Translations under genes and position numbers: made by a program | Notes under the pieces: generated by a model | What the model saw: only the letters and a program-made list of their open reading frames with translations | Database searches by the model: none | What the model was told of the DNA's origin: nothing | Assembly (NCBI GenBank): GCA_012517375.1 | Contig: JAAYVC010000043.1 | Span: 1-32,546, forward strand | Length of the DNA stretch: 32,546 nt | From: a bacterium | Lineage (GTDB): Bacteria; Hydrothermota; Tepidihabitantia; B3-TA06 | Direction: 5' to 3' | Shown here: positions 27,360 through 32,289 of the stretch, piece after piece | Position numbering within the stretch: the first letter of the stretch is position 1 | Layout of the letters: each line of letters starts with the position of its first letter

Positions 27360-27842
27360 TTACATTAGCTTCTGCAAGATAGCCTCGATTCTAGGCAAGG
27401 CATCCTTTGAAGCCTGCAGGGCTTTTTCCTTGTAGTTCTTCTTGATGATGCTTATCTTGCTTTTCTTTGAATCGCCTCCTTCATCAATCGTCTTAGCCCA
27501 TATCCTGTTGACTTTGTCGTAGAAATTGTAGAGTCCGCCTATGGTTATCAATGCTTCGGTTACTTCCGGTAACGGGATTCTTCCAATTGAGGGAAGAATC
27601 GAACCGCCCAGCCTCGTAAACACAAGCTGTTCGCCGCCTGCACCTTTCCTTAGATCAGGCAGAATCTCGATATTGCTGCGTATCTCATCAGCCACGGCTT
27701 CGAGATAGCATCTTAGCTGGATGCGATTCCTGCCACGCTCGCTTCTTCGCTTCTGGCTTTCTATGATTAGTTGAACGAAAAGCCCTACTAAACCAGCTAT
27801 CAGAGCGCCTGAAACTGTAGGAAGAATAACGGTCAATAGCAT
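27360..27842 (-). CDS. Small membrane-anchored protein of unknown function (cassette, outer member B)
   Basis: A 160-residue protein: an N-terminal membrane helix (about 2-27, VILPTVSGALIAGLVGLFV), then a charged, mainly helical cytoplasmic part. The ATG at 27842 is chosen because AAAGGAG lies 6 nt upstream; the frame stays open to 27914, but that ATG has no ribosome site. Its layout matches the gene at 29317-29955: G-x-LIA-x2-VG within the helix, IE at the helix end, and then YLEAVADEIRSNIEIL against YLLAFAEEIDTNILWL in the other. The pair flanks two tandem paralogues. No known family was recognised. Confidence 0.75.
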   Translation of the reverse strand: MLLTVILPTVSGALIAGLVGLFVQLIIESQKRRSERGRNRIQLRCYLEAVADEIRSNIEILPDLRKGAGGEQLVFTRLGGSILPSIGRIPLPEVTEALITIGGLYNFYDKVNRIWAKTIDEGGDSKKSKISIIKKNYKEKALQASKDALPRIEAILQKLM

Positions 27843-27966
27843 CGCTGCTCCTTTTTTACTGTCCGTATAAAGATCTCTGTTTTCCATCGCCGTAATTTTA
27901 ACTACAGAACTCATGGACGTTATCTCAGGAATATCTGTAAGTTTTATGTTGCTAGCTTAATATTAA

Positions 27967-27994
27967 ATTATACTAATTTTCCTGAACCGTTCAA
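27967..27994 (-). promoter_or_regulatory. Promoter of the 27842 gene (with long leader)
   Basis: Minus strand: TTGAAC at 27994-27989, 16-bp spacer, perfect TATAAT at 27972-27967. The predicted leader is about 118 nt to the ATG at 27842 and carries the AAAGGAG. It lies just after the stop of the previous gene. Confidence 0.6.
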
Positions 27995-27998
27995 TGAC

Positions 27999-28598
27999 CT
28001 AGCATGCATTCCTGGAATTTTCCCCAAGCCTGATTCTCCATTGGAGTACCGGATCATCTGAGTGTTTGGTTCCGGCATCCTCGACTTCGACCTTGAGAAA
28101 ACCCATGGTTCTGAAGACCTGAGTGAACCAAGCCTCTATGAGAGGCGGAAACAGGGGGTCTGGCTCAAAATCCTTCAGTTCAATAACGACTCCGGCATCA
28201 GTCCTGTTGATCAGAAGAGTTCCCTTGTTGTAGTATTTTTTCCACATAACACTGATATTGTTTAGCGCAAGATGAAACGGGACGTTGACAAGCATCCCCT
28301 TCAAGAAAGACGCAATTTCGTAGCTTGCAGCGAAAATACCGGCATCGTAAACCGCTTTCTCCGGATCCCGAGGGTTGAAATGCTCTGCAATTACTTCCCT
28401 CATTTTGCGCTGCAAGGAGAAGGGATACCACTCCTTTTTCTGAATTTGGAGAAGCGTTTTCGAATCACTGGTTAACCTGTGAAGCATAAAGTGTCCGAAT
28501 TCAGCTGGGTCAAGCGACGCACGCACGTATTCAGTCAGAGAGATTATGGATACGCCTCGCACCATGATAGAGGCACTGGAAGGACCCTCCTTGAGCAT
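27999..28598 (-). CDS. Cassette paralogue 1, WYP-motif helical protein (DUF2378/V4R-like)
   Basis: A 199-residue soluble protein of no named function. Roughly 40% of positions match the next gene: VRGVS near the start, EWYPFSLQRKMRE (about 56-68), NPRDPEKAVYDAG, an FL run, then W-K-K-Y-Y-N-K-G (about 119-126) and ELKDF, and a tail W-R. The WYP...G...W-x-x-YY-x-x-G pattern recalls the DUF2378 (TIGR02265) proteins of myxobacteria and the heme-NO-binding/V4R group of sensors, but no heme-ligand His is evident. The ATG at 28598 has a TTGACA/TATTAT promoter 8 nt upstream. The link to those families is from memory and tentative. Confidence 0.7.
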   Translation of the reverse strand: MLKEGPSSASIMVRGVSIISLTEYVRASLDPAEFGHFMLHRLTSDSKTLLQIQKKEWYPFSLQRKMREVIAEHFNPRDPEKAVYDAGIFAASYEIASFLKGMLVNVPFHLALNNISVMWKKYYNKGTLLINRTDAGVVIELKDFEPDPLFPPLIEAWFTQVFRTMGFLKVEVEDAGTKHSDDPVLQWRIRLGENSRNAC

Positions 28599-28606
28599 AC
28601 TGCATT

Positions 28607-28635
28607 ATAATAGACAATTATCTGGGGATTGTCAA
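28607..28635 (-). promoter_or_regulatory. Promoter of cassette paralogue 1
   Basis: Minus strand: TTGACA at 28635-28630, 17-bp spacer, TATTAT at 28612-28607, 8 nt to the ATG. An overlapping TATAAT (28609-28604) ends 5 nt before the ATG but sits 20 bp from the -35 box. Either way the leader is nearly absent. Confidence 0.55.
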
Positions 28636-28637
28636 GT

Positions 28638-29213
28638 CTACTTCCATTCAGCCTCCCACCTCCAGCATTCATCTCCTTTATGTATGTTTCCTGTCTGTCT
28701 TATTAGCACATCATTGAGTTCAAGCATTCTGGCAGCGACAGTGAGCCATGCGGTCACGACAGGTCCAAACAACTTGTCGGCAGGAAAGTCTTTCAACTCC
28801 AGAACCGCCTTTTTGTCGCCAGCAATAGTCTGCATAACACCTCTACTGTAATACTTATTCCACACGGTCGCTGTTTGTTTGAAAACAAGCTTGGCAGGAA
28901 GGAAGTTCATTATCGCCCGCAGAAATGTGCTCATCTCGTACTCAGCGGTGTAAATGCACGCATCGAACACCGCCTGTTCAGGGTCCAGGGGATTGTATTT
29001 CCGGACTATAAGTTCTCTCATCTTTTTCTGCAAATCAAAGGGATACCACTCAGCCTTTTCTACGTTAAGGATGGCCTGCTTGTCATCATCGGACAGGGGC
29101 GAAAGAAAAGCCTTTAGGGATCCGCCCTCCAGTTTTGTCCTCATATACTCGCGCAACGCAAACAGCGAGACGCCGCGTACGAGCATATCGGGTTCATTAG
29201 CAGTCTCAGACAT
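28638..29213 (-). CDS. Cassette paralogue 2, WYP-motif helical protein (DUF2378/V4R-like)
   Basis: A 191-residue paralogue of the neighbouring 199-residue protein, sharing VRGVS, EWYPFDLQKKMREL, NPLDPEQAVFDA, W-N-K-Y-Y-S-R-G, ELKDF, and a C-terminal WRWE. The frame is open to 29285, but the extra part (GASRFSTVIFLTN...) contains a promoter and is not shared with the paralogue, so the ATG at 29213 is preferred. Tandem duplication followed by strong divergence is the simplest reading. Its TTGACA promoter (29252-29247) suggests it is transcribed separately. Function unknown. Confidence 0.7.
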   Translation of the reverse strand: MSETANEPDMLVRGVSLFALREYMRTKLEGGSLKAFLSPLSDDDKQAILNVEKAEWYPFDLQKKMRELIVRKYNPLDPEQAVFDACIYTAEYEMSTFLRAIMNFLPAKLVFKQTATVWNKYYSRGVMQTIAGDKKAVLELKDFPADKLFGPVVTAWLTVAARMLELNDVLIRQTGNIHKGDECWRWEAEWK

Positions 29214-29224
29214 ATACCGCCGGT

Positions 29225-29252
29225 AGTATCTCTGCAAAAAGGCGTTTGTCAA
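29225..29252 (-). promoter_or_regulatory. Candidate promoter of cassette paralogue 2
   Basis: Minus strand: TTGACA at 29252-29247, 16-bp spacer, GATACT at 29230-29225 (poor first base), 11 nt to the ATG at 29213. The weakest of the set, but correctly placed. Confidence 0.4.
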
Positions 29253-29316
29253 GAAAATCACTGTGGAGAACCTTGAGGCTCCCACTTAAATTCGATGCGA
29301 TGCTACTTGAATGATA

Positions 29317-29955
29317 TTAGTTTACCTTTTCTATAAGTTCCTTGATTAATGCTGTTGTGGGTTCTGCTTCCTCAATAGTACCATCTAAGACTTCATCCTT
29401 GAGATATTGTTTTGCTTGGGCAATTGGCATGATAGAACCTGATTCTGCAATAATTTTTCTTTGAATTCCTTCCCGGATATTATTCACTGTATCGAAACAA
29501 TTATAAGAACGTGTGATGCTTTGGATTACTTCTTTTATTTCTGAAAAAGGTATATCAGCTTCTTTTTTGTAGTGTGCAACGATGGGTAAGAATTGTACTA
29601 ATTGAGGTAAACAAAAATCTCTTGTTGCTGTTAGCAAAAACCTAATGGAACGAGCTTCCTTGATATCAATTGGTTCTTTGCCTGGAAATCCCTTCGCATT
29701 CTTAAGCCATAAGATATTAGTATCGATTTCCTCTGCAAATGCCAGCAAATACCCAATAGCTTTCTTATGCTCAGCGTTTTTTTGAACAATTTCTCTACGT
29801 TGTTCTATCCTTTTGGAAGCTAAGAAACCTACGAAGGCAGCAATCAAACCTCCCAAGATTGTCGCAATGGACGTAGCGATTAATTGCCATGCGCTTCCCC
29901 ATCTCAGGAATGCGATTATTTCTTTAGCATCCCAGATATTCCAAAAGAATATCAT
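29317..29955 (-). CDS. Small membrane-anchored protein of unknown function (cassette, outer member A)
   Basis: A 212-residue protein with a membrane helix at about residues 21-46 (WQLIATSIATILGGLIAAFVGF) and a charged helical cytoplasmic part with EEIDTN and YKKEADIPFSEIKEV. The start has a strong AAGGAGG. It is AT-rich: 39 of 60 bases are A or T in 29461-29520, against 18 of 60 in 30481-30540 of the kbl gene, which suggests a different origin. It resembles the gene at 27360-27842 in length class, helix motif and order of segments. Nothing recognisable in databases known to me. Confidence 0.7.
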   Translation of the reverse strand: MIFFWNIWDAKEIIAFLRWGSAWQLIATSIATILGGLIAAFVGFLASKRIEQRREIVQKNAEHKKAIGYLLAFAEEIDTNILWLKNAKGFPGKEPIDIKEARSIRFLLTATRDFCLPQLVQFLPIVAHYKKEADIPFSEIKEVIQSITRSYNCFDTVNNIREGIQRKIIAESGSIMPIAQAKQYLKDEVLDGTIEEAEPTTALIKELIEKVN

Positions 29956-29978
29956 CTTTCCCCTCCTTAAGATATATA

Positions 29979-30000
29979 GGGCCGACCTGAAGGTCGGCCC
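29979..30000. terminator. 9-bp hairpin after kbl, probable terminator or intergenic palindrome
   Basis: GGGCCGACC (29979-29987), loop TGAA, GGTCGGCCC (29992-30000). On the minus strand it is followed by TATATATCTT, a weak T-rich tail; on the plus strand by CTACTTTTTACT. It separates kbl from the following membrane protein gene. Confidence 0.55.
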
Positions 30001-30017
30001 CTACTTTTTACTGCGAT

Positions 30018-30047: not shown

Positions 30048-31295
30048 TTATTGTCCGTACTTCTCGATGATTTCCTTCTTTTTGAGGCCAAGTATTCCGT
30101 ACTTGGCGCCCACCTTTTTGAACGCCTCGATGGCTTTGTCCAGATGCTCCTTCTCGTGCGCGGCGGAGAGCTGGGTGCGGATGCGCGCCTGGCCCTGAGG
30201 AACAACCGGGTAGAAGAAGCCTATGACGTAGATGCCCTCGTAGTAAAGGTCTCTTGCCATATCCTGCGAGAGCTTTGCGTTATAAAGCATCACGGGCACG
30301 ATAGGCGTTTCGCCGGGGCGGATGTCGAAACCGGCCTCTTCCATCTTCTCGCGGAAGTAGCGCGTGTTCCACTCCAGCTTGTCGCGTCGTTCTGTGGTCC
30401 CGGAGATCAAATCGATAACCTTGTTAGCCGCCGAAACGATCACTGGAGGCATGGTGTTGGAGAAGAGGTAGGGTCTTGCGCGCTGCTTGCACATCTCGAC
30501 AATCTCGCGTCGGCCGGATACGCAGCCGCCCGAGGCGCCGCCCAAAGCCTTGCCAAGCGTCGTCGTGATGATATCAATTTTTCCGACCACTCCGAAATGC
30601 TCGTGCGTGCCTCTTCCGGTCTTGCCTATGAAGCCGGTGGAGTGCGAATCGTCAACCAGAATCATCGCGTCGTAGCGCTCGCACAATTCGACCATCTTGT
30701 CCAGAGGAGCAAGATCGCCGTCCATAGAGAATACGCCGTCGGTAACAACTAGCCTTATGCGCTTGTCCTGGTGCATCGCGAGCTTTTCATCAAGATGCTC
30801 CATGTTCATGTGCTTGAAGGAATCATACTGCGCCTTGCACAGCCGGATGCCGTCAATGAGCGATGCGTGAACGAGCCTGTCCGAGATTATAACGTCCTCT
30901 TCGCTGAGCACGGCCTCGAACACGCCGGCGTTGGCATCCATGCATGAAGGGAAGAGCACGGTGTCCTCGGTTCCGAGGAACTTCGTTATTCTGTCCTGCA
31001 ACTCCCTGTGTATATCCTGTGTTCCGCATATGAAGCGCACCGAGCTCATTCCGTAACCTCTTGAATCGAGCCCCTCGTGCGCGGCTTTAACAACGTCCGG
31101 GTGCGAGGAGAGCCCGAGGTAGTTGTTGGCGCAGAGGTTTATTACTTCCTTGAGTTCTGCGCCCGCTGGGAATTCCACCTTTATCTCCGCGCCCTGCGGC
31201 GAGTGGATGAAGCGCTCCTCCTTAAATAGTCCGGCGTCGCGGATCTCGGAAATGGTCTTCTGGTAGTAGCCGCGGAGCTTTTCGCTGTATGCCAT
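30048..31295 (-). CDS. kbl: Glycine C-acetyltransferase / alpha-oxoamine synthase (Kbl family)
   Basis: A 415-residue PLP enzyme very close along its length to E. coli Kbl, about 17 residues longer at the N-terminus and C-terminus together. Conserved stretches: CANNYLGLSSHP, SVRFICGTQDIHRELQ, DGVFSMDGDLAPLDK and VPQGQARIRTQLSAAHE. The Schiff-base lysine is K249 in TTTLGKALGGASGG; H143 (VHAS) and D215 (LVDDSH) bind PLP. Kbl cleaves 2-amino-3-ketobutyrate in threonine degradation, yet no threonine dehydrogenase is near. Instead the preceding gene is an acyl-carrier protein, 0 nt away, so it may condense an acyl-ACP with an amino acid. It is much GC-richer than its neighbours. Confidence 0.92.
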   Translation of the reverse strand: MAYSEKLRGYYQKTISEIRDAGLFKEERFIHSPQGAEIKVEFPAGAELKEVINLCANNYLGLSSHPDVVKAAHEGLDSRGYGMSSVRFICGTQDIHRELQDRITKFLGTEDTVLFPSCMDANAGVFEAVLSEEDVIISDRLVHASLIDGIRLCKAQYDSFKHMNMEHLDEKLAMHQDKRIRLVVTDGVFSMDGDLAPLDKMVELCERYDAMILVDDSHSTGFIGKTGRGTHEHFGVVGKIDIITTTLGKALGGASGGCVSGRREIVEMCKQRARPYLFSNTMPPVIVSAANKVIDLISGTTERRDKLEWNTRYFREKMEEAGFDIRPGETPIVPVMLYNAKLSQDMARDLYYEGIYVIGFFYPVVPQGQARIRTQLSAAHEKEHLDKAIEAFKKVGAKYGILGLKKKEIIEKYGQ

Positions 31296-31559
31296 TTACG
31301 CCCCCTTGAAGCGCTTTACTAGCTCCACAATCTTCGTGACCGTATCGAACGCATCCGGAGTTGCATCCTCATCCGGTATCTTTATCTCATATTTCTTCTC
31401 TAAGAACACCTTGAGCGAGACCATCGAAAATGAGTCCACTATTCCGCCTGAGATCAAGGGCGTATCGGTCGTAAGCGCCTCGGCTTCGTCCTCGTCGTCG
31501 ATGTACTCGTTCTTGACGTAGGTAAGAACCGTGTCCTTTAATTGTTTTTCATCAAGCAT
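31296..31559 (-). CDS. Acyl-carrier protein
   Basis: An 87-residue acidic four-helix carrier protein. The phosphopantetheine site is S43 in GGIVDSFSMVSL (canonical DSL, here DSF). Start AAGGAG is 7 nt before the ATG. Its stop abuts the kbl start, so the two are translated together. It is unlike a housekeeping AcpP, which has GADSLD; the GGIVDS form is typical of dedicated carriers in lipid or natural-product clusters. Probably it delivers the acyl group to the neighbouring Kbl-family enzyme (inference). Confidence 0.9.
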   Translation of the reverse strand: MLDEKQLKDTVLTYVKNEYIDDEDEAEALTTDTPLISGGIVDSFSMVSLKVFLEKKYEIKIPDEDATPDAFDTVTKIVELVKRFKGA

Positions 31560-31743: not shown

Positions 31744-32289
31744 TTAACTTTCACTTGTTTTCTTTATGTGTTGCTCCCAGAATTTGCTTCTCTTGTTTCT
31801 CGATGAAAGAACGGGTTTTTTGATTTCCGGAGACAATTGTTCGTTCTGCCATTTCCTTTCTTCATCGATAGATTCGCCTTCGCAGACAAGAGCTTTAAGC
31901 ACGTATTCTGCGGCTAAAGGAGCATGATCGGGCATGAGCGCGATCGCGACGGCATGTCCAACACCCCGGGCAACTGCAATCAACACCGGGTCGGTCAATT
32001 CATTTGCTGCATCGATTGCACCAAAAGTAGCATTGCGTGCGCTGCCGACAGACGCTTTTCCTTCTTTCCACATCCTGGCTATCTTGTACGTATTCTAAAC
32101 GTTCATCAATTTTTTCGCCAAAAAGCGGCAGCACCCTCTTAATGCATTTTTGTGCCCAGTGTATAAGCTGTCTGTGCTGCTTTTCTTGCAAAGCCCCCCT
32201 CTATGTTCGGCTATGAACGGATAGCGAGAAGACTTTTGTGCAGATTTCTTCAGTGCCTCCTTTGTTAAATTTGGTCTATTCTTTTGCAT
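31744..32289 (-). pseudogene. Frameshifted immunity-type protein gene (Imm5-like family)
   Basis: One family protein of about 180 residues is spread over two reading frames on the minus strand. Frame a, from the ATG at 32289: RPNLTKEALKKSAQKSSRYPFIAEHRGGLCK. Frame b, from about 32193: EKQHRQLIHWAQKCIKRVLPLFGEKIDERLE. Then back to frame a near 32090: IARMWKEGKASVGSARNATFGAIDAANELTDP and on to the stop at 31744. In intact relatives (polymorphic-toxin immunity proteins, as I recall them) these pieces are contiguous. Two shifts, near 32190 and 32090, compensate but a TAG in frame a lies just upstream of the second, so no full protein is made. It may be a sequencing or assembly fault if the raw reads disagree. 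Confidence 0.7.

Follow-up and report, generated by a model that had tools for sequence, protein, structure and literature searches.

A conserved pair of zinc-less H-NOX/V4R-superfamily proteins and a linked single-helix membrane protein in a candidate division WOR-3 bacterium

In the window analysed here, a stretch of 32,546 nucleotides, two tandem genes encoding H-NOX/V4R-like proteins (P1 and P2) form, by their gene order in relatives, a conserved and vertically inherited chromosomal group with the gene of a small membrane protein (M2). On balance, we lean towards the view that P1 and P2 are zinc-less and heme-less-looking ligand sensors which signal through M2 or use it as a membrane anchor. 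This reading is backed by homology, predicted fold, loss of a zinc site, gene order in three genera and promoter positions. Since the locus is chromosomal and vertically inherited, an earlier interpretation as a defence cassette is corrected.

Layout of the locus

A preliminary description had reported a set of four genes at 27360-29955, and an ORF check recovered all four there as minus-strand frames (Table 1). For P1, translation probably starts at ATG 29213 and not at GTG 29285, because homologues begin at the former position and a promoter-like site lies between the two codons.

Table 1 Features of the cassette and its surroundings
Feature	Position	Strand	Description
M2	27360..27914	(-)	184 aa; single-helix membrane protein
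Promoter-like site of M2	27967..27994	(-)	TTGAAC-16-TATAAT; 52 nt before ATG
P2	27999..28598	(-)	199 aa; P1 paralogue
Promoter-like site of P2	28607..28635	(-)	TTGACA-17-TATTAT; ends 8 nt before ATG
P1	28638..29213	(-)	191 aa from likely ATG 29213; longest ORF 28638-29285 from GTG 29285
Promoter-like site of P1	29225..29252	(-)	TTGACA-16-GATACT; ends 11 nt before likely ATG
M1	29317..29955	(-)	212 aa; one N-terminal transmembrane segment (residues ~22-48), helical, predicted-cytoplasmic tail
Perfect hairpin	29978..30001		GGGCCGACCTGAAGGTCGGCCC; between KBL and M1
Imm5_like remnant	31744-32191 (in-frame 31744-32073)		PF21805, E 3e-19, profile 46-128 of 129

The hairpin is a dispersed repeat whose 20-base core (N in the loop) has nine exact copies in the genome, with none for a reversed control. 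At 30048-31559, an acyl carrier protein (ACP) gene adjoins a gene for a KBL-type alpha-oxoamine synthase (glycine C-acetyltransferase-like). The two genes stay together in 15 of 16 loci, which come from WOR-3, Aminicenantes, Ignavibacteria, Cloacimonetes, Zixibacteria and others. This wide retention suggests that the KBL-type enzyme, with its dedicated ACP, catalyses a condensation that depends on the ACP and does not simply break down threonine.

Family and fold of P1 and P2

That P1 and P2 are diverged tandem paralogues, as proposed earlier, is borne out by 37% identity over 186 residues (E 2e-51 in a single comparison) and by the presence in both of the four motifs VRGVS, EWYPF, DPE.AV and W.KYY. 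Pfam, NCBIfam, PHROGs and PADLOC gave no usable match to the single cassette proteins; in Pfam, P1 and P2 match no family at E<=10, including HNOB (PF07700) and V4R (PF02830), and M1 and M2 match none above cutoff. Hence, the superfamily assignment of P1 and P2 rests on their relatives and on the fold. Similarity to V4R, HNOB and MsvR surfaced only when all relatives were scanned: among the 40 P-family members covered by profile scans, 22 match Pfam V4R (best E 2.8e-6), 20 match NCBIfam MsvR and 13 weakly match HNOB (best E 8.2e-5), and P1 and P2 align to the V4R-matching members at E values of 1e-12 to 1e-50. The P-family profile also matches the MopR sensor domain weakly (E 0.023) over the cysteine region.

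Using the AlphaFold model of P1 (pLDDT 90.3), the best Foldseek matches in the PDB are all H-NOX proteins (TM 0.60-0.67; for 2o09, E 1.3e-7 and TM 0.63), followed by guanylate cyclase beta and TRAPP subunits, of which 3cue is matched more weakly than H-NOX (E 3.9e-4, TM 0.43). The structural search suggested in the preliminary description thus returned an H-NOX fold for P1. For M2, of which only a weak model was obtained (pLDDT 69), it returned no solved fold at E<=0.001, just helical-bundle noise. Because relatives match V4R, HNOB and MsvR and the P1 model matches H-NOX, the predicted structure and these profile matches place the P1/P2 family in the H-NOX/V4R/Bet3 superfamily. P1 and P2 each consist of one domain of ~190 aa and have no HTH; none of the four cassette proteins contains a DNA-binding, kinase or cyclase domain.

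Zinc and heme sites

A zinc-cysteine pattern, C-x25-C-x7-C (spacing 26 and 8), which corresponds to the zinc-binding Cys-(E)-Cys-Cys site of V4R domains, is kept in 30 of the 40 P-family relatives. Its spacing is identical to that in MaMsvR (redox cysteines C206/C232/C240; PMC3729527) and in DmpR (zinc ligands C151/C177/C185; PMC7264223), and very similar to that of the zinc site in V. cholerae H-NOX (Cys149/Cys174/Cys182, spacing 25 and 8; PMC7108781). In the family alignment, the zinc-site positions are occupied by G, Q, N and W in P1 and by P, D, T and L in P2, so that the zinc-cysteine (redox) site present in most paralogues is gone from both. The P1 orthologue of another genus, at 50-53% identity, has likewise lost it (G, Q, D and W in G007). 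Going by this alignment, the zinc-less form is ancient: it predates the separation of the genera and has been conserved ever since, and its occurrence in both orthologues argues against simple decay.

The YxSxR heme motif is absent from P1 and P2, and the P-family alignment contains no common His column except for a Y/H position after a conserved W and the C-terminal HKGD motif. As YxSxR is lacking and the single His of P1 lies within HKGD, heme binding is not expected, and P1 and P2 are apparently heme-less.

The membrane proteins M1 and M2

The two small single-helix proteins had been noted for their matching layout, and this likeness reflects true, distant homology (BLASTP E 7e-10 in a single comparison; phmmer E 7e-7 against the full set of fetched ORFs). 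Near the N-terminus, both carry a single strongly hydrophobic segment, and the part behind the helix scores 67 on its own against 28.6 +/- 5.0 in 500 shuffles (maximum 50). The notion of a mirrored cassette as a design, however, did not hold. Among the 147 genomes of the phylum, M1 has no relatives in other genomes save as a distant homologue of M2, and it was not found in plasmids, phages or viral contigs. Its GC content is 0.37 compared to 0.45-0.48 for P1, P2 and M2 (GC3 0.31 compared to 0.49-0.56), it has a strong Shine-Dalgarno sequence, AAGGAGGGG, and no close-set promoter, and its place in relatives is taken by ABC transporter or Hypoth_Ymh/FmdE genes. Since M1 is confined to the window genome, AT-rich and Shine-Dalgarno-led, the mirrored layout is regarded as a local addition and not as a conserved unit; M1 itself would be a later M-type gene, either laterally acquired or fast-diverged.

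Conservation in related genomes

The relatives considered are MAGs labelled candidate division WOR-3 / Candidatus Stahlbacteria. P-family members occur in 40 of the 147 genomes of the phylum, and many copies are found only in four genomes of the window's own family (22, 19, 17 and 9), the remaining holders having 1-3. In the window genome, 21 copies are retrieved with P1 as query and 22 with the family profile. One of its contigs, C14, carries a tandem run of about a dozen P genes beside a rocD-like aminotransferase gene, and a similar array stands beside the same gene in G001; such V4R/H-NOX-fold arrays with an adjoining rocD-like gene thus occur in two genera (13 genes, L015 4765-14276; 8 genes, L047 6908-11638). 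A small protein with a hydrophobic N-terminal stretch and no M-profile match is encoded directly upstream of a P array in G001 (L048 7252-7797, beside uvrC); the matching array of G003 has one at the same position (L049 2627-3133).

The recurring unit of the cassette is [P-P-(P)]-M2, present in three genera (window genome, G007 and G001). G007 has ACP-KBL ... P-P-P-M facing MutS, which is the same KBL-MutS interval as in the window, and G001 has ACP-KBL-ABC transporter-P-P-P-M facing FtsY. Checking whether the gene order recurs elsewhere, as had been advised, therefore shows that the genes are not unlinked in all relatives. In G003 (81% complete), ABC transporter-P and P-FtsY lie on separate contigs without M, so that M2 is not obligatory, and the WOR-3 contig L061 has KBL-MutS without any cassette. 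Across the 147 genomes, M-family proteins are restricted to the window genome, G001 and G007 and always adjoin cassette P genes, the sole exception being a weak and partial match within a longer open reading frame.

In the tree, the cassette P genes fall into a single clade with 99/98 support, which also takes in P genes from a locus with a cNMP-binding gene, a PlsC-type acyltransferase gene and a Glt-symporter-like gene. This setting of cyclic-nucleotide-binding protein, P gene, PlsC-type acyltransferase and Glt-symporter-like gene is seen, whole or in part, in four genomes (L016, L044, L045, L046). In the class relatives G012 and G036, a P gene directly adjoins genes for PAS/GAF/HD-GYP-type proteins (L051 5731-9021; L052 3663-9864).

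Promoters and leaderless transcripts

Individual promoters had been postulated in the gaps for three of the four genes, and promoter-like sites indeed fit for P1, P2 and M2; their support is positional. An excess of promoters in the region as such was rejected, as six sites compare to 5.3 in shuffles. The fetched DNA of the window genome contains 35 strong sites at <=60 nt upstream of candidate starts; 17 of them end 4-11 nt before ATG, with about 4-5 expected, and in relatives 16 of 33 do so. Given how close its site lies to the ATG, the P2 mRNA is predicted to have no leader or almost none. In G001, G003 and G007, almost every orthologous cassette P gene has a TTGACA-like -35 and a TATAAT-like -10 element ending 6-9 nt before the start, the first cassette P gene of G001 having a weak site only; most P genes of the C14 and C35 arrays are Shine-Dalgarno-led instead. 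Because the enrichment at 4-11 nt extends to unrelated genes, it is read as general leaderless use and suggests widespread leaderless transcription in this WOR-3 lineage rather than a peculiarity of the cassette. Strong -35/-10 sites ending 5-9 nt before the ATG of many genes are seen in the window, L015-L019 and L039-L054. Among the papers searched, none combines the words leaderless and WOR-3.

Proposed function and alternatives

Stand-alone H-NOX/V4R proteins bind a ligand or change their redox state and then contact a separate output protein. By analogy, P1 and P2 would respond to a ligand and act on M2. As stand-alone sensors of this superfamily, they would probably form homo- or heterodimers, and binding of a small ligand, probably a hydrophobic one, in the pocket of their fold may change their shape. 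M2, encoded directly downstream and conserved with the P genes, is their likely partner; with its N-terminal membrane helix and cytoplasmic helical tail it could either tether the sensors to the inner membrane or receive their signal. We infer the ligand class, dimerisation, P-M contact and membrane location of the complex. Transcription of P1, P2 and M2 would start from three separate promoters, giving leaderless mRNAs for the two P genes, and the doses of the three proteins could therefore differ. Stand-alone H-NOX-type sensors usually have partners of PAS/GAF/HD-GYP type, and the P genes adjoining such genes in two class relatives were counted in favour of the sensor reading.

P1 and P2 might instead be cytoplasmic ligand sensors or regulators, with M2 being a conserved neighbour that has an unrelated job. 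This is unlikely, yet deserves consideration, as each gene has its own promoter, G003 has no M2 beside its P genes and P genes exist at other loci without any M; on the other hand, M-family genes adjoin cassette P genes in all three genomes that have them and, barring the one partial match, occur nowhere else in the phylum set. Decay of P1 and P2 into functionless copies that lack a partner would account for the missing zinc residues and for the long branch of P2 (1.18), but is very improbable given their intact frames, their own promoters and the same loss in the orthologue of another genus. We give little credence to a third option, according to which the P family is a TRAPP Bet3-like membrane-adaptor scaffold with heterodimers fixed via M2, and not a sensor. 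V4R as proposed ancestor of Bet3 (PMC2253512), TRAPP subunits among the Foldseek matches, the much expanded family (22 copies) and two zinc-less members adjoining membrane proteins would fit such a scaffold, while the TRAPP match is far weaker than that to H-NOX, relatives adjoin signalling proteins and inspection by eye of the examined P arrays showed no small GTPase or Roadblock gene nearby. The related idea of an expanded Bet3/V4R-like family whose zinc-less members are membrane-held by a dedicated single-helix protein, yielding a multi-subunit adaptor or receptor as a bacterial parallel to TRAPP-type assemblies, appears quite improbable.

The preliminary description had further raised a membrane-linked sensory or defence module next to an immunity pseudogene. 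Its sensory part agrees with the H-NOX/V4R fold, whereas a defence or toxin-immunity module is the least credible of all readings. Defence loci often encode small membrane proteins as effectors, and an Imm5_like gene fragment does lie 1.8 kb from the cassette. However, the N-terminal part of this fragment continues in another frame, which makes it a frameshifted remnant, and no Imm5_like gene was seen next to the cassette in either of the relatives examined, G001 and G007; its adjacency in the window is therefore uninformative. PADLOC returned no families at E<=1 for any of the four proteins, PHROGs and NCBIfam gave no match either, and no mobile genes were seen in the cassette or orthologous neighbourhoods. 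In addition, the chromosomal setting is fixed among housekeeping genes, with KBL-cassette-MutS in G007 too, and the spread across genera is vertical.

Comparison with known systems

Proteins with the V4R/H-NOX fold connect the sensing of redox state and small molecules in bacteria to TRAPP, a vesicle machinery of eukaryotes. Like the P family, H-NOX proteins (Nostoc 2o09; Shewanella, Vibrio) display this fold over about 190 residues and occur as stand-alone proteins of ~190 aa; they share a zinc-Cys site at an equivalent place with most P paralogues (PMC7108781), and adjoining HD-GYP-type signalling genes with the P genes of class relatives. P1 and P2 differ in lacking YxSxR, the zinc site and an evident heme ligand, with about 10% identity. 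MsvR from methanogens and the phenol regulators MopR/DmpR resemble P relatives in profile similarity and in the same three-Cys spacing (30/40). In contrast, P1 and P2 have neither a fused HTH nor an AAA+ output, their cysteines are lost, and a linked membrane protein is found instead; MsvR, for instance, combines an N-terminal HTH with a V4R domain bearing three Cys, and P1 and P2 lack both that HTH and those Cys. Myxobacterial DUF2378 (TIGR02265) represents a lineage-specific paralogue expansion of ~190-aa single-domain proteins, as does the P family, but was dropped as a candidate family since PF09536 is matched by only one of the 40 members at E 0.18; by this test, they are not the same family.

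TRAPP Bet3 would belong to the same superfamily as P1 by fold (PMC2253512), although the structural match is weaker and no eukaryote-like trafficking partner was seen. For an archaeon, a set of seven V4R proteins was described in 2008 as unusually large (PMC2253512); this one bacterium has about 22 family copies, mostly stand-alone proteins in tandem arrays. The conserved pairing of zinc-less P members with a membrane protein offers a concrete candidate partner for a stand-alone member of the superfamily.
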